Source: Candidatus Poribacteria bacterium
GTDB taxonomy: Bacteria; Poribacteria; WGA-4E; GCA-2687025
Length of the DNA stretch: 64,000 nucleotides
Assembly: GCA_028818695.1 (NCBI GenBank)
Contig: JAPPNK010000025.1
Location: forward strand, 1 to 64,000
Direction of reading: 5' to 3'
Both the position numbers and the translations under genes were made by a program. Under the pieces are notes generated by a model that saw only the letters and a list, made by a program, of their open reading frames with translations, did no database searches and was not told the DNA's origin. Positions 1-30,008 of this stretch are shown here, piece after piece; the stretch's first letter is position 1; each line of letters opens with the position of its first letter.

Positions 1-1559
1 AAGATATGCAGCGGCGAGCCTGTTTGGACATCCCAGAGCCGCGCCGTCTCGTCGGCGGAGGCGGTCGCAAGCGTCTGTCCATCCGGCGAGAACTGCGCTG
101 TCCAAACAACATCGGTATGTCCCTCAAACGCCGCTATGAGGCGCGCTGATTGGACATCCCATATCTGCGCTGTCTTGTCGCTGCAGGCGAGAGCGAGAAA
201 ATTGCCCTCCGGCGAAAAAACAGCGGAATAAACGGCATCCGCATTCGTCTCCATTACGGACCTTTCTTGGAGCGATTGGACATCCCATATGCGCGCCTTG
301 CCGCCTTTGCCGGCGGCAGCGACCGTTTTGCCGTCAGGAGAGAACGCCGCGCTGTAAACGGCGCCTTTATGACCATGGAGCGTCCTCGGATGGGCGCCTG
401 TTAGGACATTCCACAACTTGGCGGTTCCGTCGAAGCTTGCGCTCACAAGAGTCTGTCCATCAGGAGAAAACGCAACGCATGTTACATTGCCTGTGTGGCC
501 GCGCATGGCGATCAGCTGAGCGCGCGTTTGGACATCCCAGAGCCGAATCGCGTTGTCCCAATGCCCAGTTGCGATCGTTCGGCTGTCGGGCGAAAACGCG
601 GCGGACTCAACATGCGAGGTGTGACCTTCGATGGCTTGGCGGACGGCGCCGGTTCTGGCGTCCCACATGAGCAGGCGCCCGTCTTTCCGCCCTCCGCCGC
701 TGGCAATTGTTCTGCCGTCGGGGGAATAGACAGCGCAGTCGATGTCGCCTACATATCCGATGAGCCGCTGCCGCAACTGTCCGGAGCGTACATTCCAGAT
801 GCGCGCTGTTTTGTCAAAACTGCCGCTCACAAGCGTTTCTCCCGAAGGGGAGAAGTGGACAGACATGACGCGGGCGGAATGTCCTTTGAGCGTCGCTTTG
901 CATCTGCCTGTTTGGACATCCCAGAGCCGCGCCGTTGCGTCGTCGCTGCCGGTCGCAAGCGTCAGGCCGTCAGGGGAGAAGGCGGCGCATGTGACCGCGT
1001 CTTCGTGTCCAATGAGGGTCGTTTTCTGTTTATAGTCGGACTTCACATCCCAGAGGCGCGCCGCGCGGTCTCCGCTTCCGCTGGCGAGCAGCGCGCCGTC
1101 GGGAGAGTAGGCGACGCAATAGACGATGTCGGTATGACCTTCAAGGGTGTGGACGAGCTGTCCGCTTCGCGCGTCCCATATCCGCGCGGTATGATCATAG
1201 CATGCGCCGGCGACGAATCTTCCGTCCGGCGAATAAGCGGCGTAGATCAGCGAATCGGGCGACTCCTCAAACGTCGTTATCATCTCGCCTGTATAGGCGT
1301 CCCACAGCTCGGGTTCGTCTGGGCCGGCGAGTACGAGCGTTCTCCCGTCCGGCGCAAAGGAGGCGGCGAGCGCAGACCTGTTCAGCAAGTTCCGTTCAGC
1401 GTATGTCTTCGCGTCGTAGATCCATGCGCCGGCGTCGGCGCAGACCGCCATCAGCTCCCCGTCGGGAGAGTAGGCGATGTCGGAGAGCCACCCTTTGCCG
1501 AGACGCGCGGCGGCGCCTTCCGGCAGGTTCCATTGCGAATAAGCGTCCGTTCTAGGCAC
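1..1559 (-). CDS. WD40-repeat protein, array copy 1 (runs off the left edge)
   Basis: This is the last visible member of a tandem array of WD40 genes read leftwards. The frame is open from a GTG at 1559 to base 1, at least 519 codons, and the C-terminus lies outside the window. GTG is chosen because it gives the same N-terminal segment as the sister genes (NLPEGAxARLGKGW followed by a first blade ending IYDAKTY), with AAGGG a few bases upstream. About 12 blades with the signature FSPDGxTLAxxxxDxTxRLWDVQTG are visible. There is no signal peptide or membrane segment, so it is probably cytoplasmic. WD40 propellers are protein-interaction scaffolds with no catalytic residues. It starts 15 bp after the stop of copy 2. 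Its N-terminal blade is the most diverged of the five (IYDAKTYAERNLL against LYDAKTYAELSLL), which suggests it is an older copy. Confidence 0.9.
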   Translation of the reverse strand, partial: MPRTDAYSQWNLPEGAAARLGKGWLSDIAYSPDGELMAVCADAGAWIYDAKTYAERNLLNRSALAASFAPDGRTLVLAGPDEPELWDAYTGEMITTFEESPDSLIYAAYSPDGRFVAGACYDHTARIWDARSGQLVHTLEGHTDIVYCVAYSPDGALLASGSGDRAARLWDVKSDYKQKTTLIGHEDAVTCAAFSPDGLTLATGSDDATARLWDVQTGRCKATLKGHSARVMSVHFSPSGETLVSGSFDKTARIWNVRSGQLRQRLIGYVGDIDCAVYSPDGRTIASGGGRKDGRLLMWDARTGAVRQAIEGHTSHVESAAFSPDSRTIATGHWDNAIRLWDVQTRAQLIAMRGHTGNVTCVAFSPDGQTLVSASFDGTAKLWNVLTGAHPRTLHGHKGAVYSAAFSPDGKTVAAAGKGGKARIWDVQSLQERSVMETNADAVYSAVFSPEGNFLALACSDKTAQIWDVQSARLIAAFEGHTDVVWTAQFSPDGQTLATASADETARLWDVQTGSPLHI

Positions 1560-1574
1560 ACGCCGCCCTTCAAT

Positions 1575-3379
1575 TTACCTGTGGATTGACCATAGCAGTA
1601 CGGTTCCGTCGTGGCAATCGCTGGCGAGCGTTTGTCCATCGGGGGAGAAAGCGAGATCGTTCACATCGTCAGAATGCCCCTCCAGCGTCATGACGGATTT
1701 GCCCGTATGGACATCCAACACCCGAACGACCTTGTCGTCGCCAATCGCGATGAGTCCTCCATCCGGCGCAAACGCTGCGCAGTAGAGCAGCTCGTCGGCG
1801 AAACCTTCAAAGCGCCTGACGATCTGACGCTTTCGAACATCCCATAAACATGCGGCGCGTTCGGTACCGACAACGGCAAGCAGCCGTCCGTCCGGCGACA
1901 ATGCCGCTCGAAACACACGCTCCATTTCCTTGCTTTTCAACGCCGCAATTTGGGAGCCGCTAGGGACATCCCAAAGAAGGACGCCCTCGCAGGACGCGGA
2001 GAGGAGCGTTTGTCCGTCCGGCAAATAGACGGCGCTGGACACGGAGCCGTCATGTCCTTTGAGCGTTTTTTGATGCCGCCCCGTTTGGACATCCCATAGT
2101 CTAACGGTATGATCAGAGCTGGCGGTGGCGACCGTCTTTCCGCTTGGGGAAAACGCGACGTCGTTAACGAACCCGTCATGTCCTTCAATACAGCTTTTTG
2201 CCGCCCTGTTTGGACATCCCAGAGCCGCGCGGTTTGATCGTAGCTCGCGCTGGCGAGCGTTTTGCCGTCTGGAGAAAACGCGGCGCGCTCCAGATCTCGC
2301 TTGTGACCAAGCAGCGTTTTTTGAAGCGAGCGCGATTGGACATCCCACAGCCGAATCGCGTCGTCCCAATGTCCAGAAGCGATGAGCTTGCCGTCCGGCG
2401 AATAGGCGAGCGCATCCACTGTCGCCGTATGTTCTTCGATGACGCGCTTCTCGGAGAACATATGCGCGTCCCAGACGCGGAGCGTTCCGCCGTACCGCGA
2501 CCCGCCCGTGACGATCATCCGTCCGTCCGGCGAATAGACGGCGGAGCCGATGGCATGGCCATGTCCATTCAGCTGGCGCCGCAGCTGTCCCGTATGGACG
2601 TTCCAGATGTGCGCTGCTTGATTGCCATAGCGGGAGGAAACGATGTATCTGCCGTCCGGCGAATAGGCGATGGAGGTAACGGAGTCGCTAGGTCCTTCCA
2701 TGTCCACTTTCAGCTGTCCTGTTTGGACATCCCAAAGACGCACAGTTTCGTCGTCTTCGCCGCTGGCGAGCGTTTTGCCGTCGGGAGAAAAGGCGAGGCA
2801 ATAAACATCATCGCTCTCTGAATCGATCTTTTTCAGGAGATCCCCTGTTTCGGCGTCCCAGAGATGGATCGCCCCGTCGCCGCCGTTGCTTGCGAGCATG
2901 CGGCTGTTCGGAGAAAAGGCGAGAGCGACGGCGCTATAGTCTTTGCCTCGTTTCAGCTCCGCGAACGGTTTGCCGAATCGAGTGTCCGCTAACATGACAG
3001 CGCTTTCCATGCCGACGGCGATCGTCCTTCCGTTCGGCGAATAGGCAACGCTGTAAGCGCGGCGTCCGACTTCAAACTCGGTTTGAATCCCGCCTGTTTG
3101 GACATTCCAGATTCGCGCCGTTTCGCTGCGGTGATACGCGGCGGCGATCGTCTTTCCGTTGGGCGCAAACGCCGCGGCTATAGGGCGCTCGCCATGAACG
3201 TTCAGCAGAGCCGTTTCGGCGAATGTCTTGCCGTCGTAGAGCCATATCCCAGGGCCGGCGCAGACCGCCAAGAGCTCCCCGTCCGTCGAATAGACGATGT
3301 CGGAGATCCAGCCCTTGCCGAGGCGGGCGACAGCGCCTTCGGGCAGGTTCCAGCGGGTGTAAGCGGACGTGTTGTTCAT
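1575..3379 (-). pseudogene. WD40-repeat protein, array copy 2, broken by a one-base frameshift
   Basis: The start at 3379 (MNNTSAYTRWNLPEG) has the AAGAAGGGAC ribosome binding site shared by the array, and the TAA stop is at 1575. The span is 1805 bp, one base short of a whole number of codons. Reading from the start gives about nine good WD40 blades, then the frame fails after WDVQTGRQKAVLK at about 2181-2186. The next frame resumes immediately with GHDGFVNDVAFSP and runs through five more blades to LLWSIHR. Copy 3 has AAAGGACAT at the same place where this copy has GAAGGACAT, so a single-base deletion explains the break. It is either a real pseudogene or frameshift-expressed, or a sequencing error in the A/G run. 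Restored, it would encode about 601 residues and 14 blades, like its neighbours. Confidence 0.88.
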
Positions 3380-3398
3380 GCGCCTCGTCCCTTCTTGT

Positions 3399-5210
3399 TT
3401 ATTCAGCGGTTGACCAGAGCAGAATGGTTCCATCATGTCCAGCGCTGGCGATGATCTTGCCGTCCGAGGAAAACTCGACCTCGTACACATAGCTTCCATG
3501 CTCAAGCGCCGCTTTAGAGGCGCCTGTTTGGACATCCCAAAGCCGTACGGTTTTGTCATTTCCGCCGCTGGCGAGAGTTTGTCCATCCGGCGAAAATGCC
3601 GCGGCAATGACGCCGTCCTCAAGATGCCCTTCTAAGATTTTCACAAGCGCGCGCTTTCGAACATCCCATAGACACACGCCGCACCCATATCCGACAGCGG
3701 CGAGAAGATGTCCGTTCGGCGAAAAAACGACGCGAAGCGCATTCTCCATTTCTTTGCGTTTCAACGCCGCTATTTCGGAACGGCTTGGAATGTCCCAAAG
3801 ACGGACGGTTCCGTTGGAACCGGCGGTAGCGAGCGTTTGCCCGTCCGGCGAATAGGCTGCGCAATGGACTCTGTCGGCGCGTCCAATGAGAGTCGCTTGA
3901 CGCCGACCGGTTTGGACATTCCATATGCGAACGGTACCGTCATCGCCGGCGGAGGCGAGCGTCTGTCCGCTTGGGGAAAACGCAACGCTGTAGACGAAAC
4001 TTTCATGTCCTTTCAGAACAGCTTTTTGCCGTCCTGTTTGGACATCCCACAGCCTAACCGTCGCGTCGTAGCTGGCGCTGGCGATGGTCTGCCCATCCGG
4101 CGAATAAGCGACGCTGCCGATGTCGCCGGTGTGGCCGCGCAGAGTTTTAAAATGAGCGCCCGTTTGGACATCCCAAAGCCGTATCCGTATCGCGTCGTCA
4201 TAATGCCCGGAAGCGATCGTCCCAGCGTTGGAACGCGCGTCGGGAGAAAAGGCAAGCCCGTCAATCATCGGCGTATGTCCTTCGATGGTTTGGCGCACAG
4301 CTCCTGTTTGCGCGTCCCAGCATCGCAGCGTTCCGTCGCCGAGCTTTCCGCCGGTAACGATGGTTCGTCCATCCGGCGAATAGACGGCGCAATCGATGCC
4401 CCCGATGTGTCCAATCAGCTGCTGCCGATGCTGGCCTGTTTGCGCGTCCCAGATGCGCGCCGTTCTATCTGCGCTGGCGCTGACAAGCCGCTTCCCATCA
4501 GGAGAAAAGGCGACCGAATGGATCGATTCGGTATGCCCCTTGAGCGTTTCTCTGCACTGACCCGTTTTGACGTCCCATAGTCTGACCGTCTCGTCGCTGC
4601 TGCCGCTGGCGAGCGTTTTTCCGTCCGGCGAGTATGCTGCGCAGGTCGCATAGGCGTCGTGTCCTTTGAGCGTCTTAAGGCGTTCCCCCGTTTCAGCGTC
4701 CCATATCCGTACGGCCCTGTCGGCGCTGTCGCAGGCAAGCGTCCGGCTGTCTGGAGAAAAAGCGAGCGCGTCCACAGACTCTTCGCCTTTCAGCGCCGTA
4801 AATGTCTTTCCAAATCGGACATCCAATAGCAAGACATCCTCTTCTCTGCCAACAGCAAGCGTCTTTCCGTTGGGCGAAAACACAACGCTCCGGCTGTCGC
4901 CGGTCTCTTCAAACTCGGTTCGAATCTCGCCTGTTCGGACATCCCACAGCCGCGCCGCGCCTTCATAGGCGGCGGCAAGCGTCTTTCCGTTGGGCGAAAA
5001 CGCCGCAGCTTCAGCGCCTTCGCCGTGGACGCTCAGCAAGGACAATTCGGCGTAGGTCTTCGCGTCGTAAAGCCATATCCCAGGGCCCGCGCAGACCGCC
5101 AAAAGCTTCCTGTCGGGAGAATAGGCGATGTCAGAAATCCAGCCCTTGCCGAGACGGGCGACAGCGCCTTCGGGGAGGTTCCAGCGGGTGTAAGCGGGCG
5201 TGTTGTTCAT
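3399..5210 (-). CDS. 14-blade WD40-repeat protein, array copy 3
   Basis: A complete 603-residue protein. After the conserved N-terminus (MNNTPAYTRWNLPEGAVARL) I count 14 WD40 repeats, from ISDIAYSPD to the last one ending ILLWSTAE. This is enough for two seven-bladed propellers. Blade 8 carries an insertion (SPDARSNAGTIASGHYDD and a doubled IRIRLWD). No signal peptide or transmembrane helix is seen, and no enzymatic domain is fused. The ribosome binding site AAGAAGGGACGAGGCGC precedes ATG. Spacing to its neighbours is 19 and 17 bp, so it is very likely co-transcribed with the rest of the array and with the ECF sigma gene upstream at 8916-9473. The molecular role is unknown; a scaffold or sensor partner for the sigma factor is an inference from position. 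Confidence 0.93.
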   Translation of the reverse strand: MNNTPAYTRWNLPEGAVARLGKGWISDIAYSPDRKLLAVCAGPGIWLYDAKTYAELSLLSVHGEGAEAAAFSPNGKTLAAAYEGAARLWDVRTGEIRTEFEETGDSRSVVFSPNGKTLAVGREEDVLLLDVRFGKTFTALKGEESVDALAFSPDSRTLACDSADRAVRIWDAETGERLKTLKGHDAYATCAAYSPDGKTLASGSSDETVRLWDVKTGQCRETLKGHTESIHSVAFSPDGKRLVSASADRTARIWDAQTGQHRQQLIGHIGGIDCAVYSPDGRTIVTGGKLGDGTLRCWDAQTGAVRQTIEGHTPMIDGLAFSPDARSNAGTIASGHYDDAIRIRLWDVQTGAHFKTLRGHTGDIGSVAYSPDGQTIASASYDATVRLWDVQTGRQKAVLKGHESFVYSVAFSPSGQTLASAGDDGTVRIWNVQTGRRQATLIGRADRVHCAAYSPDGQTLATAGSNGTVRLWDIPSRSEIAALKRKEMENALRVVFSPNGHLLAAVGYGCGVCLWDVRKRALVKILEGHLEDGVIAAAFSPDGQTLASGGNDKTVRLWDVQTGASKAALEHGSYVYEVEFSSDGKIIASAGHDGTILLWSTAE

Positions 5211-5227
5211 GCGCCTCGTCCCTTCTT

Positions 5228-7018
5228 TTATTCAGCGGTTGACCAGAGCAGGACGGTTCCGTCGTCGCTTCCGCTGGCTAATGTTTTTCCATCCGGCGAA
5301 AACGCAAGACCGCTCACCACAAACGAATGCCCTCCCAGCTCCCTTTTGAGTTGACCTGTTTGGACATTCCAAAGCCGGACGATTTTATCTACGCCTCCCG
5401 TGGCAAGCGTCTTTCCGTCCGGCGAAAACGCGGCGCAATAAACATAATAACTGGGATGCCTGAATGTTCTATAAAGGTCGCGCGTTTGAACATCCCATAG
5501 GCAGACGTCGTTGCCCGGCCCGACGCCGGCAATCAGGCGGCCGTCCGGCGAAAAGAAAGCTTGACGCATGAATTCAACTTGCTCGTTCTGCAGCGTCGCA
5601 ATTTGGGCGCCGGTTGGAATGTCCCACAGCATAACGGTCCCGTCTTCAGACGCGCTGGCGAGCGTCCGACCGTCCGGCGAGAACGCCGCATCGTTGACCT
5701 CGTCCGTGTGTCCAATGAACGCCGCCGTCTGCTGTCCGGTTTGTATATTCCATAAGCGCGCGGAATGATCGCGGCCGGCGGTTGCGGCCGTTTCTCCATC
5801 CTGCGAGAACGCGATGCCGAGAACGCCGTCCTCATGTCCATATAAAACGCTCTTTTCCTGCCCGGTTTGGACATCCCAGAGTCTCGCAGTTTTGTCGTCG
5901 GAGGCGCTGGCGACGGTTTGTCCATTCGGCGAATAGGCGACGCTGTTCACGGCGCCGCTGTGACCGCGCAAAATGTCCAACGGAACGCGCGATTGAGTAT
6001 CCCACAGGCGCACCGCGGCGTCCCAATACCCGATTGCGAGCGTTTGTCCATCCGGCGAAAAGGCAAGCCCGCTAACAGCGTCGGCATGCCCTTTGATCGT
6101 TTGGCGTTCGGCTCCTGTTTGCGCGTCCCAAAGCCTGACAGCGTCGTCGGAGCCTGTCCCGCCTGAGGCGATCGTTTGTCCATCCGGCGAATAGACGGCA
6201 AACTCGATATGATCCGTATGCCCGATGAGCCGCTTTTGACATTTGCCAGTATGGGCGTTCCAGATGCGCGCTGTCGTGTCAAAGCTGGCGGTGACGATGT
6301 TCTGTCCGTCTGGCGAATAGGCGACCGACATCACAAAGTCGGTATGCCCTTTGAGTTCGCCGACGCGCCGGCCTGTTTGGACATCCCACAGCAGAACCGT
6401 CTTGCCGCCGCTGGCGAGCGTCCGGCCGTCCGGCGAAAAGGCGACCGACGCGGCGCGGCTCTCCTGTCTTAACTCCGCTTTCAGTTGGGCTGTTTGGACA
6501 TCCCACAGCCGGACGATTTTATCGTCGCTTCCGCTGGCGAGCGTTCGGCCGTCCGGTGAAAAGGCGACCGCATCCACATCGTATTTTATCTTTTTCAATT
6601 CAGCGATCAATTTGCCTGATTGAACATCCAGCAGCCTGACGCTGCCATGCATGCCAAGAGCGATCGTCTTTCCGTCCGGCGAAAAGGCGGCGCTGCGAGC
6701 GTTACAGGCGTTTTCAAACGCATCTAAGATCTCTCCTGTTTGAACATCCCATAACCGCGCCATGCTGTGATCATATGCGGCGGCGATCGTCTTTCCGTTA
6801 GGAGAAAACGCGGCGGCTTTGGCTTCCTCGCTGCGTATGCTCAACAGCGCGGTTTCAGCGCAGGTCTTCGCGTCGTAGAGCCATATTCCCGTCCCGGCGC
6901 AGACCGCCAAGAGCTCCCCGTCCGGCGAATAGACGATGTCGGAGATCCAGCCCTTGCCGAGACGGGCGACAGCGCCTTTGGGGAGGTTCCAGCGGGTGTA
7001 AGCGGGCGTGTTGTTCAT
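5228..7018 (-). CDS. 14-blade WD40-repeat protein, array copy 4
   Basis: A complete 596-residue paralogue with the same plan: MNNTPAYTRWNLPKGAVARL, then about 14 WD40 repeats ending GTVLLWSTAE. Typical blades read SVAYSPDGQ..TASxDxTARIWN. One blade (SRAASVAFSPDGRTLASGG then KTVLLWDVQTG) is shortened by several residues. The last blade and the stop region at 5228-5310 are nearly identical in DNA to copy 5 at 7038-7110, and the start regions of copies 3, 4 and 5 are also near-identical. The interior is more diverged, a pattern expected from recent duplication or gene conversion. No targeting signal is visible. Confidence 0.93.
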   Translation of the reverse strand: MNNTPAYTRWNLPKGAVARLGKGWISDIVYSPDGELLAVCAGTGIWLYDAKTCAETALLSIRSEEAKAAAFSPNGKTIAAAYDHSMARLWDVQTGEILDAFENACNARSAAFSPDGKTIALGMHGSVRLLDVQSGKLIAELKKIKYDVDAVAFSPDGRTLASGSDDKIVRLWDVQTAQLKAELRQESRAASVAFSPDGRTLASGGKTVLLWDVQTGRRVGELKGHTDFVMSVAYSPDGQNIVTASFDTTARIWNAHTGKCQKRLIGHTDHIEFAVYSPDGQTIASGGTGSDDAVRLWDAQTGAERQTIKGHADAVSGLAFSPDGQTLAIGYWDAAVRLWDTQSRVPLDILRGHSGAVNSVAYSPNGQTVASASDDKTARLWDVQTGQEKSVLYGHEDGVLGIAFSQDGETAATAGRDHSARLWNIQTGQQTAAFIGHTDEVNDAAFSPDGRTLASASEDGTVMLWDIPTGAQIATLQNEQVEFMRQAFFSPDGRLIAGVGPGNDVCLWDVQTRDLYRTFRHPSYYVYCAAFSPDGKTLATGGVDKIVRLWNVQTGQLKRELGGHSFVVSGLAFSPDGKTLASGSDDGTVLLWSTAE

Positions 7019-7037
7019 GCGCCTCGTCTCTTCTTGT

Positions 7038-8831
7038 TTATTCTGCGGTTGACCAGAGCAGGACGGTTCCGTCGTCGCTTCCGCTGGCTAATGTTTTTCC
7101 ATCCGGCGAAAACGAAACCTCAAAGACAACGCTTGAATGCCCTGTCAGAACCGCTATAGACTCGCCTGTTTGGACATCCCATAAGCGAACGGTTTTATCT
7201 ATGCCTCCGCTGGCAATCGTATGTCCATCTGGAGAGTAGGCGGCGCTAAAGATGTACTCGCCGGTATGTCCTTCAAAGGTCTTGTGAAGCTGGCGCTTGC
7301 GAACATCCCATAGGCAGACGACGTTTCCGTACCCGACGCCGGCAAGCAGACGTCCATTTGGCGAAAAGACGATCTGATACACCATCTTTAGTTGGTCGCT
7401 TTTCAACTCTGCGGCGGGAGCGCCGGTTGGAACGTCCCACAGCCGTATGGTTCCATCGTCGCATGCGCTGGCGAGCGTCTGTCCATTCGGGGCGTACGCG
7501 ACATAGCTGACCTCCTCGGCATGTCCAACCAGCTTTGTTTTCTCCCGTCCTGTTTGGACATCCCATATTCGGATTGTTTTGTCGAAGCCGGCGGTTGCGA
7601 TCGTTTTTCCGCTTGGGTTGAATGCGACTCCAAAAACGACATCTTCATGTCCTTTAAGAACCTTTTTTTGCCTCCCTGTTTGGACATCCCAGAGCCTGGC
7701 GGTGTCGTCGTCGGATGCGCTGGCGACGGTCTGTCCATCCGGCGAATAGGCGAGGCAATTCACGTCTTCTTTGTGTCCGCGCATCGTTTTCAAGTGAGCG
7801 CATGTTTGGACATCCCAGAGCCGAATCGCGTCGTCCCGATGTCCAGTAGCGAGCGTTTTGCCGTCGGGAGAAAAGGCGAGGCCGTCCACAACAGCTGTGT
7901 GTCCTGCCGCGGTTTGGCGGACGGCTCCTGTCTGGACATCCCAGAACCGCAGCGTTCCGTCGTCTCCTTTTCCGCCTGTGACGATCGTCTTGCCGTCCGG
8001 CGAATAGACGGCGCAATCGATGCCGCCGACATGTCCAATCAGCTGTCGGCTGAGCCGACCGTACTGGGCGTCCCAGATGCGCGCTGTCCTGTCTCCGCAG
8101 GCGGCAAGCAGTCCCCTTCCGTCCGGCGAGCAGGCGACCGAAGAGATTCTCCCAGTATTTCCCTTCAACTCCGCTTGGAGACGCCCGGTATGGACATCCC
8201 AGAGCCGGAACTTTTCGCCGCCGCTGAGTAACATATTGCCGTCGTCGAAAAAGGCAATGCATCTCGCCTCATCGTTCTCATGGGCGATTTTCTTGAGACG
8301 CTCCCCTGTTTCAGCGTCCCAGAGCCGCATCGTTTTATCATCTCCGCCGCTGGCGAGCAGGCCGTCCGGCGAAAAGGCGACCGCATGGACTTCGCCCCGA
8401 TGCCCTTCCAGCGTTGTGAACGCCTCGCCGTGCCGGGCGTCCAACAGGTGAATCGTCCTGCCGGCGCCGAAGGCGATCGTCTTGCCGTCCCGCGAGTATG
8501 CGGCGCATCGCGCATCGAAAATCTCTTCAGCTTCGGCTTGAATTTCTCCCGTCCGAGCGTTCCATATCCGCGCCGTTCCCGCCGAATGCGCCGCGGCGAG
8601 CGCGTTGCCGGCGGGCGAAAATACGGCGGCGCGCGCGCCCTCGCCGGGGACGCTCAGCAGGGACAACTCGGCGCATGTCTTCGCGTCGTAGAGCCATATG
8701 CCTGGACCTGCGCAGACCGCTAAAAGCTCCCCGTCCGGCGAATAGGCGATGTCAGAAATCCAGCCCTTGCCGAGGCGGGCGACGGCGCCTTCGGGGAGGT
8801 TCCAATGCGCGTATGCGGGCGTTTTGTTCAT
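7038..8831 (-). CDS. 14-blade WD40-repeat protein, array copy 5 (sigma-proximal)
   Basis: A complete 597-residue protein, first in the array and 84 bp downstream of the ECF sigma gene. The N-terminus is MNKTPAYAHWNLPEGAVARL, then about 14 WD40 repeats ending GTVLLWSTAE. One repeat has lost two residues (FSPDGLLASGGDDKTMRLWD), and another has a degenerate core (CIAFFDDGNMLLSGGEKFRLWD). AAGGAAGCGGTGA precedes the ATG. It is predicted to be cytoplasmic, with no fused catalytic domain. Known: ECF sigma factors joined to or next to WD40 domains occur in Planctomycetes and similar phyla, where the propeller is suspected to serve in signal perception. A role in controlling the adjacent sigma factor is inferred only. 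Confidence 0.93.
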   Translation of the reverse strand: MNKTPAYAHWNLPEGAVARLGKGWISDIAYSPDGELLAVCAGPGIWLYDAKTCAELSLLSVPGEGARAAVFSPAGNALAAAHSAGTARIWNARTGEIQAEAEEIFDARCAAYSRDGKTIAFGAGRTIHLLDARHGEAFTTLEGHRGEVHAVAFSPDGLLASGGDDKTMRLWDAETGERLKKIAHENDEARCIAFFDDGNMLLSGGEKFRLWDVHTGRLQAELKGNTGRISSVACSPDGRGLLAACGDRTARIWDAQYGRLSRQLIGHVGGIDCAVYSPDGKTIVTGGKGDDGTLRFWDVQTGAVRQTAAGHTAVVDGLAFSPDGKTLATGHRDDAIRLWDVQTCAHLKTMRGHKEDVNCLAYSPDGQTVASASDDDTARLWDVQTGRQKKVLKGHEDVVFGVAFNPSGKTIATAGFDKTIRIWDVQTGREKTKLVGHAEEVSYVAYAPNGQTLASACDDGTIRLWDVPTGAPAAELKSDQLKMVYQIVFSPNGRLLAGVGYGNVVCLWDVRKRQLHKTFEGHTGEYIFSAAYSPDGHTIASGGIDKTVRLWDVQTGESIAVLTGHSSVVFEVSFSPDGKTLASGSDDGTVLLWSTAE

Positions 8832-8915
8832 TCACCGCTTCCTTTTCACAAGCGGACAAGCGCCAACGCCGCCGCTTCCGTTGTAAAATACACCGCCGGG
8901 CGCCGAATCCGCAAC

Positions 8916-9473
8916 CTAATACCCTCTCTTTTTCAAACGCTCTTGCGCCAATTTCCGCGCCCGCCTCAAGCGAGACTGCGCTGTCTGCGGCTCCACATTT
9001 ATCGCGCGCGCCATCGCCCTGGTCGACAAGCCCTCCGCTCGAAGGCGCAGCGCCTCCTCGTAGATGCGCGGCAGCTCCTTCACAACCTGCTCCGCCTCTT
9101 TCGCCAGCTCCTTCTCCAGCAGGTTCTCCAGCGCCGTATTCGCCGCTTGCGCGTCCTGTTTGCTTCGCAAGCTGAGCCGTTCTCTTCGCTGCCGCTCCGC
9201 GCGGGCGCGCCGCCAGTCGTCCACAAGCAGATTGCGCGCGATTGTCATGCATCGGCGCGCCCATCTGTCGTCATCCTCCAAATGCTCGGGCCGGGACGCC
9301 CAAGCGCGCATGAGCGTCTCCTGATACAGATCTTCGACGCGATGCTCATCAGGAACTCGACGGGCAAAGTAATGCAGCAGCGCCTCGCCTCGTTCGCGTA
9401 TTTTACGTTCAAAGTCGCGCTGCGCTTCTTCAAGAGACGGCGCCTCGATGGAGCGCGGTTTCGCAGCCAGCAT
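8916..9473 (-). CDS. ECF-type RNA polymerase sigma factor
   Basis: 185 residues, normal for an extracytoplasmic-function sigma-70 factor. Region 2 is at about residues 30-95 (RVEDLYQETLMRAWASR, then RWARRCMTIARNLLVDDWRR) and contacts core polymerase and the -10 element. Region 4 is at about 125-180 (LPRIYEEALRLRAEGLSTRAMARA, then TAQSRLRRARKLAQERL), the helix-turn-helix that reads the -35. The linker (about 96-124) is charged. No anti-sigma factor gene is present; instead at least five WD40 genes follow in the same direction. The start at 9473 is supported by AGGAGG five bases upstream. A 23-bp palindrome at 9486-9508 lies just upstream of that site. It probably controls the array or a cell-envelope response, but the target promoters are unknown. 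Confidence 0.92.
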   Translation of the reverse strand: MLAAKPRSIEAPSLEEAQRDFERKIRERGEALLHYFARRVPDEHRVEDLYQETLMRAWASRPEHLEDDDRWARRCMTIARNLLVDDWRRARAERQRRERLSLRSKQDAQAANTALENLLEKELAKEAEQVVKELPRIYEEALRLRAEGLSTRAMARAINVEPQTAQSRLRRARKLAQERLKKRGY

Positions 9474-9485
9474 GGCATCCTCCTG

Positions 9486-9508
9486 TTTTACAAATTATTT
9501 TTGTAAAA
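9486..9508. promoter_or_regulatory. Perfect palindrome upstream of the sigma gene, candidate operator
   Basis: TTTTACAAA-TTATT-TTTGTAAAA: two perfect 9-base arms around a 5-base centre, AT-rich in a GC-rich region. It ends 12 bases before the sigma start and abuts its AGGAGG. It overlaps the expected transcription start of the weak promoter at 9510-9538. An operator for a dimeric repressor, or an mRNA hairpin gating the ribosome binding site, would both fit. No second copy was noticed in the window. Confidence 0.6.
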
Positions 9509-9509
9509 C

Positions 9510-9547: not shown

Positions 9548-9713
9548 CTGACCTTAAGGCTCTAGTTGGAAATTGGAAGGAATAATCGCTCTATTTATGG
9601 GAAAAGGCGTCGCCAACCAGGCCGTCATTCCCGCGCAAGCGGGAATCCAGAGGCGTCGCCGAAACCGTCCGCGTTCGCCAGGCGGAATGTCCCAACTAAA
9701 GCGCTAAGGTCAG
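9548..9713. repeat. MITE-like dispersed element, copy 1 (166 bp)
   Basis: The ends are inverted repeats: CTGACCTTA at 9548 and its complement ending at 9713, each followed inwards by AGTTGG(G)A. The centre holds the hairpin ATTCCCGC-GCAA-GCGGGAAT (9627-9646) and the flank CCAGAGGCG that recurs in other copies. The element carries ATCGCTCTATTTAT, also found in the copies at 20.4 kb and 44.9 kb. No open reading frame is supported. Together with the palindrome and two promoters it fills the 302-bp gap between the sigma gene and gyrB. Confidence 0.8.
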
Positions 9714-9723
9714 TTATTGGGGC

Positions 9724-12993
<3,270 letters not shown>

Positions 12994-28137: not shown

Positions 28138-28178
28138 CCGATCTCATGCCTAAAGTTGGGACATCATCGCGAAAGAAC
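28138..28178. repeat. Half element: terminal repeat plus CATCGCGAAAGAAC flank
   Basis: CCGATCTCATGCCTAAAG-TTGGGACAT (27 bases) is the left-end repeat of the dispersed family. It is followed by CATCGCGAAAGAAC, which recurs after the repeat at 36.2 kb and so defines a second subtype. It lies in the divergent gap between the SDR and the ECF sigma gene. The gap also has a TAAAAT -10-like hexamer at 28249-28254. Confidence 0.65.
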
Positions 28179-28295
28179 CGTTGCGCCGCCCGTCGTCAAT
28201 CCGATTTGTCTAACTCCAGGGAGCGGTCCAAAAAATGCAAAATAGCGGTAAAATATCCCATCCCCGATCATCATATCAGGGAAAGGGAGGCGTGT

Positions 28296-30008
28296 ATGGC
28301 AAACGAACGCGATCGGTTCCAATTCGACGAGGCGGCTCTCGGTCAAATTGAGAACATACGCCGCATCGGGCTGCGGAGGCTGCGCAACAGGAACGAGATC
28401 GACGATTTTGTTCAAGAAACGCTGCTGCGGGCGTTCTCAAAGCGGAGCCAGCTGCGCGACGAGGCGAAGTTTGAAGCATGGATCGCCGCCATCGCCCGCA
28501 ATCTCGCGCGAGAATGGAACCGCGCCTACTGCCGCAGAAAACGCGCCGAGGCGGCCGGCAGAACGACAGAAGCGGTCGACTCAAGAAACCCGCTGGACGC
28601 CCTTGAAAAGGCGGAGGAGCGGGAGCTTCTGAAACAAGCGGTGGCGCGCCTGAACGAGAGCGACCGGGAGATCCTACGCGCCCGATATGTGGACGACGCA
28701 TCCTACGCCGAGCTGCAGGAGCGTTACGGCTTGTCCTATTCGGCGGTCGGGCTGCGCCTTCACCGCGCGAAAAGGCGGCTGCGCAAGATCTATATGTCGA
28801 TCGCCGCCGCGCTCTCCCTTTTCTTTGGAAGTTTCAAACAAACGGCATGGGGAGGAGCGGTACTGCTCATGAATAAAACGAAGGTTGCGGTTGGAATCGC
28901 AGCGGTTTTCGGGGTCGCGGCAACAACTGGAGTTGTTGTTGTGAAAAAACATGCCTCGATTCCGCCGTCAGATTCATTGAAAACCCATCAACAAGCGTCA
29001 ACGCCTTCCAGCGCAACATCGGAGGCGGCAATGGATGAGAACGGGCATAAGGAGACAGCAATGGACGACAATGGGCATGAGAAGACGGGCGCTGCGGCAA
29101 CGCCTCTTCCTCATCGGGTTTATGTTCCGAAAGCCGATGAGCCGCTTGCTTACCGCCTATTTTGGCAGGAGGTCGGGGAGCGGCTGACCGTGGAAGAGAT
29201 GCAAAGCGACCCTGAACGCGCCAAGGAAACGCTGCGCGCCATCGCCGAAAAGCATGCGGACGGCAACGCGGACGCGGAAACATACTTTTTTCTCGACGCC
29301 GAATGGAAGTTGAAGGAAAAGTCCCGCCGCTTTATTTCAAGTGATAAATATCGACTGTGGCTTGAAGCAAAGAAAAACCTATACGGTCTAGACAAGTCGG
29401 AAGACGCCGATCTAGTCCATATCTATTTGTCAGATCGATATGCGAGCGACACGGAAAAGATTGACTTCTATACAAAGCCGCTTGACGACTGGGTGCGTTG
29501 GATACGAGAAAATGCGCCCTCTGAATGGGATGCCGTTGAGGAGGCATACAGCGACAATCAGTGGAAGTTTCTGGACGCGGAGCCTGGGGCGATAGACGGT
29601 CCTCCCCGTTACACCTATGAAAATTTTCCAACGGTCGAACAGCGGGCGCGCGCCTACTATATAGCTTTCTTTGAGGCTGTTGCGCTGCTGCCGGACGACG
29701 CCGCAGCGTTCACGGTTTATTTTGGCTCCGCTTCCCCGGCGTCCGAAGAACGCCATAAAATAGAGGATGCGAATCCGCGCCAAGACGCGCCTCCTCCGCC
29801 TTCTCCCTCAAAAGAGCGTCAGGCTGCTTCAGACGAAGCTGCCGCCGTTGAAGCCGCATTTGAGCAGGCGGTACAAGATTCGATACGGCGATACGGTCCT
29901 GAAGAAGGGCTTCGGCGCTTGATCGTGTCAGATCATGACTGGATAGAGCGGATTGGACGCTTGCAAGAGCGTCGGCAAGAAGAAACGCCTCCGCCGCCTG
30001 AGGATTGA
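28296..30008 (+). CDS. ECF sigma factor fused to a membrane segment and C-terminal domain
   Basis: 570 residues. The first about 170 are a complete ECF sigma factor: region 2 (NEIDDFVQETLLRAFSKRSQ, WIAAIARNLAREWNR) and region 4 (LNESDREILRARYVDDASYAEL, GLSYSAVGLRLHRAKRRLRK). Then come two hydrophobic stretches, SIAAALSLFFGSF near 170 and VGIAAVFGVAATTGVVVV near 199-216. About 350 hydrophilic residues follow, Ala/Pro/Glu-rich in parts and without a domain I know. The second stretch would put the tail outside the membrane, tethering the sigma part. Start at 28296 is supported by AAAGGGAGG. An internal ATG at 28870, just before the second hydrophobic stretch, has GGGGAGGAGC upstream and may start a separate membrane protein. 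Confidence 0.88.
   Translation: MANERDRFQFDEAALGQIENIRRIGLRRLRNRNEIDDFVQETLLRAFSKRSQLRDEAKFEAWIAAIARNLAREWNRAYCRRKRAEAAGRTTEAVDSRNPLDALEKAEERELLKQAVARLNESDREILRARYVDDASYAELQERYGLSYSAVGLRLHRAKRRLRKIYMSIAAALSLFFGSFKQTAWGGAVLLMNKTKVAVGIAAVFGVAATTGVVVVKKHASIPPSDSLKTHQQASTPSSATSEAAMDENGHKETAMDDNGHEKTGAAATPLPHRVYVPKADEPLAYRLFWQEVGERLTVEEMQSDPERAKETLRAIAEKHADGNADAETYFFLDAEWKLKEKSRRFISSDKYRLWLEAKKNLYGLDKSEDADLVHIYLSDRYASDTEKIDFYTKPLDDWVRWIRENAPSEWDAVEEAYSDNQWKFLDAEPGAIDGPPRYTYENFPTVEQRARAYYIAFFEAVALLPDDAAAFTVYFGSASPASEERHKIEDANPRQDAPPPPSPSKERQAASDEAAAVEAAFEQAVQDSIRRYGPEEGLRRLIVSDHDWIERIGRLQERRQEETPPPPED

Follow-up and report, generated by a model that had tools for sequence, protein, structure and literature searches.

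ECF sigma factors carrying WD40-like C-terminal extensions are known from the Planctomycetes, where they constitute group ECF57; their sigma2 and sigma4 domains are linked by two conserved cysteines, and control by protein interaction has been proposed for the WD40 extensions (PMC8999054). Proteins in which an ECF sigma domain is coupled to WD40 repeats have also been described in Gemmataceae (PMC8567305, PMC11032199), and in Planctomycetes sigma-70 genes adjoin WD40 genes, although in the part of that article considered here these neighbourhoods are not described as an ECF gene with an array of same-length double propellers (PMC5587647). The abundance of WD40 proteins in Poribacteria has been reported (PMC3909097), and none of the articles searched mentions a sigma factor, WD40 repeats and Poribacteria together. 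The locus under study shares with ECF57 and the Gemmataceae proteins the coupling of an ECF sigma factor to WD40 repeats, and with the Planctomycetes neighbourhoods, as far as that part of the article goes, the position of a sigma gene beside a WD40 gene. However, whereas in ECF57 and Gemmataceae sigma and WD40 parts are joined, here they are separate genes, the WD40 side being a tandem array of predicted full double propellers. The first-pass annotation of this DNA had noted sigma factors joined to WD40 domains in Planctomycetes-like bacteria, which agrees with the description of ECF57 in Planctomycetes (PMC8999054); its further statement that no system of this layout had been described is too strong, considering ECF57 and, within the same part of the article, the sigma-70/WD40 neighbours (PMC8999054, PMC5587647). 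The locus is probably a variant of known ECF-WD40 coupling.

The window, meaning the whole stretch of DNA analysed, covers the leading 64 kb of contig 9 in a Candidatus Poribacteria metagenome-assembled genome (MAG; 35 contigs, 3.57 Mb, 91% complete), and relatives matched by the WD40 N-terminal sequence are, where named, nearly all Candidatus Poribacteria MAGs. On the minus strand the ECF gene is followed by five co-directional WD40 genes, with gaps of 84, 19, 17, 19 and 15 bp in this order (Table 1), so that the open reading frames, order, strand and spacing initially noticed, an ECF gene with at least five such genes behind it, are confirmed. Position 1 of the window is the contig end and WD40 copy 5 is cut there, hence the array is not extendable leftwards; contigs 25 and 34 also end in partial WD40 genes, which were considered as its continuation and ruled out, being of secreted types.

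Table 1. Features of the ECF/WD40 locus and its surroundings (window coordinates).
Feature	Position	Strand	Remarks
WD40 copy 5	3..1559	-	GTG start, truncated by contig end
WD40 copy 4	1575..3379	-	broken by a frameshift of 1 nt near 2185, through decay or an assembly error
WD40 copy 3	3399..5210	-	603 aa, 14 blades, no signal peptide
WD40 copy 2	5228..7018	-	596 aa, 14 blades, no signal peptide
WD40 copy 1	7038..8831	-	597 aa, 14 blades, no signal peptide
Spacer ECF/WD40 copy 1	8832..8915	-	84 bp, keeps ECF reading frame
ECF sigma factor gene	8916..9473	-	185 aa with sigma2 and sigma4 as its only domains, lacking a C-terminal extension
Inverted repeat	9485..9509	.	perfect 10-bp, just upstream of ECF ribosome-binding site
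MITE-like repeat	9548..9713	.	ECF/gyrB intergenic region, 22-nt terminal inverted repeats
Type IIA topoisomerase subunit B (gyrB-like)	9776..12310	+	divergent neighbour, outside the unit; named from reading the translation

The spacers between WD40 copies 1-4 are near-identical in sequence, which indicates that the duplicated unit includes a leader with a likely ribosome-binding site. No terminator-like sites were found on the coding strand in the gaps of the array, including the 84 bp between the ECF gene and WD40 copy 1, and a scan for internal promoters was not informative, as it returned 4 promoter-like sites against 3.1 expected, one of them on the minus strand at 1617-1589, ahead of WD40 copy 5. 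Read in the ECF frame, the sequence across the 84-bp spacer runs TAG, 27 open codons, TGA, ATG; an open same-frame spacer of this kind has an estimated chance probability of ~0.1 and is not relied on, though order and spacer mirror the geometry of a fused protein.

The sigma factor protein scores above the family cutoffs (TIGR02937, 47.7 bits against 42.9; sigma r2/r4_2 models PF04542, 28.5 against 24, and PF08281, 32.1 against 25.7), and with its sigma2 and sigma4 domains it classifies as an ECF factor. It ends after sigma4 and its translation holds only one Cys, so that it has neither the WD40-like C-terminal extension nor the two conserved cysteines of ECF57. An AGGAGG sequence lies upstream of its ATG. 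No anti-sigma gene was found beside it, its neighbours being the divergent gyrB-like gene and the WD40 genes; where such a gene is lacking, control of an ECF factor frequently lies with an extension. In the tree the window ECF is a long branch, its nearest relatives being stand-alone ECFs of same-family genomes at about 31-38% identity. The genome holds 26 ECF matches above cutoff, none of them on contig 32. Twelve own-genome ECFs form a clade with long C-terminal extensions, which includes the gene at window 28146-30008 and those at loci L200 and L066; four members are clustered on contig 19, and the extensions of the three members scanned matched no Pfam family.

The window WD40 copies match the Pfam WD40 family with E about 1e-120, and each of the three complete ones has 14 blade anchors, in line with the 14 repeats originally counted in the complete copies; that count does not carry over to copy 4, which is one base short in an A run near 2185, nor to copy 5, cut by the contig edge. 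The predicted model of copy 1 has 56 strands, i.e. 14 x 4, and its single-sequence fold reaches a mean pLDDT of 77, the blades being fairly confident. Its best PDB match is 2YMU (Foldseek E 6e-47, 38% identity), a highly repetitive propeller of 577 residues which falls in the same tandem-propeller size class, although the overall superposition is poor (TM 0.41); as whole-chain superpositions are poor, the position of one propeller relative to the other is unsupported and no inter-propeller geometry is claimed. The proteins had been called giant, but at about 600 aa they are ordinary for WD40 proteins of the phylum, and the N-terminus that had been called invariant is instead strongly conserved, its first 60 columns having a mean pairwise identity of about 0.86, compared with about 0.5-0.6 in the rest of the alignment. 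Between the intact copies dN/dS is 0.24-0.43, i.e. purifying selection, which indicates that they are kept by selection. Using the definitions of the top-face interaction hotspots of WD40 blades (R1, R1-2 and D-1; PMC3419727), we observed that, of the 35 blade positions, R1-2, R1 and D-1 differ most between window copies, with a pN/pS of 0.76 at the hotspots against 0.38 elsewhere; since 0.76 is below 1, no positive selection is claimed.

The window copies belong to an N-capped WD40 family typical of the phylum, in which the motif NLPEGAxARLGKG...GxWLYDAKT precedes the propeller blades and which is found in 74 of the 82 genomes of the class, many with dozens of copies. Most members have a signal peptide: among the N-capped genes scored in the fetched loci, a simple hydropathy rule, rather than a dedicated predictor, assigned one to 143 and none to 21, the latter including the array on contig 32 of the same genome. 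The window copies start directly at the N-cap and thus lack this majority form. The secreted N-capped arrays of Poribacteria resemble the window array in their N-cap (LPxGAxxRxGxG..GxWxYD), tandem copies and hotspot divergence, differing in being secreted and in having no ECF in front. Hotspot divergence was therefore rejected as a mark special to the ECF array, as secreted control arrays show the same pattern. The earlier suggestion of a signalling unit with interchangeable partners is accordingly borne out in part only: the hotspots are indeed the most diverged positions between copies, but secreted arrays behave alike.

In another Poribacteria family, an ECF sigma domain is fused ahead of the same N-capped WD40 family, and this occurs in two forms. 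In the first, a transmembrane (TM) helix at about residue 220-240 separates sigma and propeller, which would place the propeller outside. In the second, cytosolic form there is no TM helix and the sigma domains form a clade of their own, found at E < 1e-25 in 61 of the 82 class genomes but not in the window's genome; its open frames are of several lengths, those fetched of about 800-920 aa carrying WD40. The cytosolic fusions (L128, L139, L144, L242-L257) are like the window in having N-capped WD40 repeats without signal peptide and a co-directional, closely spaced order of sigma then WD40; unlike the window, their sigma is fused to WD40, and neither part falls into the clade of its counterpart in the window. 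In the 20 loci fetched for this sigma clade, the gene directly behind the fusion is signal-peptide-less in 14 of 15 scorable N-capped WD40 cases (gaps of 14-198 bp), against 17 of 44 at other WD40 positions of the same loci (p 0.0002, which is optimistic, related genomes not being independent). A similar arrangement is found in the window, where a signal-peptide-less N-capped WD40 gene lies directly downstream of the sigma gene. In a sample gathered by WD40 sequence alone, an ECF neighbour is present in 5 of 14 signal-peptide-less and in 6 of 94 secreted genes (p 0.005 by gene, 0.02 by locus). Together, these two comparisons indicate that coupling of cytosolic WD40 genes to ECFs recurs in the phylum. 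On neither side, sigma or WD40, does the lineage with this recurrent coupling come out as sister to the window's genes: the window ECF is separate from the fused-ECF clade, though on a long branch, and an HMM of that clade, which scores 42-72 bits on six other ECFs of the genome, gives no match to it, and the window WD40 copies are not kin of the ECF-paired copies in the other family. Origin of the window pair by fission of a fused gene of that family was considered and rejected: the 84-bp spacer, being in frame, would suit it, but the clades of both the sigma and the WD40 part speak against it. Some ECFs of the TM-type sigma clade (L149:3643-5979, L160:12447-15461, L124:1644-4679) have transglutaminase or BNR/sortilin-like C-termini and no WD40, which indicates that this sigma module accepts several C-terminal domains.

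We tentatively propose, giving it somewhat less than an even chance, that the window locus is a split form of the fused sigma-WD40 design, in which an ECF is controlled by a bank of diversified cytosolic propeller adaptors. A stand-alone ECF lacking an anti-sigma gene would be transcribed together with a tandem series of soluble, cytosolic WD40 proteins of 14 blades each, presumably double seven-blade propellers, which would stand in for the fused C-terminal WD40 region of the ECF-WD40 proteins of other Poribacteria. The propellers would bind the sigma factor in trans as well as cell-internal ligands or partner proteins, this binding would set when the ECF joins RNA polymerase, and tandem duplication with top-face divergence would lead to copies with different partners. 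What favours such a split form is that an ECF is fused to the same N-capped family elsewhere in Poribacteria; that signal-peptide-less WD40 genes favour ECF neighbours and the window copies have no signal peptides; that there is no adjacent anti-sigma gene and the gaps are short and near-identical, with no terminator-like site on the coding strand; and that the copies are under purifying selection with the three hotspots most diverged. Directly supported are the order of the genes, their domains, the absence of signal peptides, the paralogy of the copies, the purifying selection on them, the divergence of their hotspots and the fused homologous architecture elsewhere; co-transcription, physical contact, regulation and functional equivalence to the fused form are what we infer for the locus. 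ECF-WD40 coupling in its cytosolic, membrane-spanning and apparently split forms offers a concrete, testable output, transcription, for at least part of the WD40 expansion of Poribacteria, and comparing these forms as a natural series could show how sigma factors come under the control of a propeller.

The main alternative, doubtful but a serious possibility, is chance adjacency, by which an unrelated stand-alone ECF lies upstream of a lineage-specific WD40 array, the latter being an orphan adaptor family with a role of its own. The genome has about 20 other loci with two or more adjacent WD40 genes, and of these about 21 arrays only that of the window has an adjoining ECF gene; ECF genes occur in just two more of the own-genome WD40 loci that were fetched, in one case kilobases from the WD40 genes and in the other on the opposite strand. 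In the WD40 tree the window array and the array on contig 32 fall into one clade (100/100) and, within it, into a separate subclade each (98/93 and 93/83), which points to one founder followed by tandem growth in place; this sister array has no ECF and sits behind a Clp-type AAA gene, and broken copies are present in both. The first-pass annotation had proposed to look for the ECF/WD40 order in other genomes and had named a lack of conservation among relatives as speaking against its reading. Among the nearest relatives this is what was observed: no such order was found upstream of the gyrB-like gene in five same-family genomes, where its homologues are 64-73% identical, nor any WD40 genes around the nearest ECF homologues of same-family genomes. 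On a wider scale its idea gains support, other Poribacteria fusing an ECF to the same WD40 family and having signal-peptide-less WD40 genes directly behind the cytosolic fusions. About 40 other places in the genome match the MITE-like repeat between the ECF and gyrB-like genes, mostly at 82-95% identity, and a repeated element of this kind is in keeping with local rearrangement. From 26 ECF genes in a total of about 3,300 and from about 20 arrays, we estimate a chance probability of ~0.1 for a single contact between an ECF and an array somewhere in the genome, so that a single locus by itself proves nothing. This probability, the ECF-less sister array and other arrays of the genome and the lack of conservation in same-family genomes weigh against the split form, as do the position of the window ECF outside the fused-ECF clade, the separate kinship of the WD40 copies and a hotspot pattern that is not ECF-specific. 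Chance adjacency in turn is at odds with the recurrence of ECF-WD40 coupling in the phylum, specifically with signal-peptide-less copies, and with an ECF and array on the same strand, 84 bp apart and with no terminator-like site between them.

It is unlikely that the ECF is a transcriptional driver only, one which autoregulates its operon and switches on WD40 scaffolds acting elsewhere, with no contact between sigma and propeller. The operon-like layout fits this, as does the inverted repeat immediately ahead of the ECF gene, a candidate operator or hairpin; yet direct contact is what the fused forms of relatives speak for, nothing pointed to an ECF-type promoter at the array, and a search of the genome for further copies of the repeat returned none, this being a single site, hence no regulon is visible. 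Very improbable is that the array belongs to a repertoire for conflict or self-recognition, whose diversified propellers would sense foreign or internal molecules and act through swappable effectors, the ECF being one of them: cytosolic relatives fused to DarT, with a NADAR-DarT1 antitoxin gene behind and bSEFIR or Schlafen AlbA_2 genes adjoining, and the broken copies in both arrays would suit it, but the window WD40 proteins have no effector domain, neither they nor the window ECF matched a specific defence model (one HEAT-ARM_XIII match over the WD40 repeats is taken as generic WD40 overlap), and the DarT-linked copies are not sister to those of the window.

Returning to these relatives, cytosolic N-capped WD40 proteins of other Poribacteria (L100:6912-9140, L146:9986-12184, L087:9971-12523) end in a DarT ADP-ribosyltransferase domain, recognized by Pfam in L100 and L087 and in L146 by 89% identity to L100. 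Behind each of their genes lies a NADAR-DarT1 antitoxin gene, recognized by Pfam in L087 and by a similar N-terminus in L100 and L146, and the pair may represent a WD40-sensor form of DarT1/NADAR. The DarT fusion of cytosolic family members fits a broader idea, which we regard as rather unlikely, namely that cytosolic N-capped double propellers would be a general plug-in sensor, feeding one ECF from a tandem bank with diversified top faces in the window and being fused to ECF or DarT elsewhere; in such a case, new inputs would be gained by gene duplication with the output unchanged. The genes upstream of the two 89%-identical WD40-DarT proteins, at L100:5602-6840 and L146:8719-9909, differ, being of the bSEFIR/TIR type in one genome and of the Schlafen AlbA_2 type in the other.
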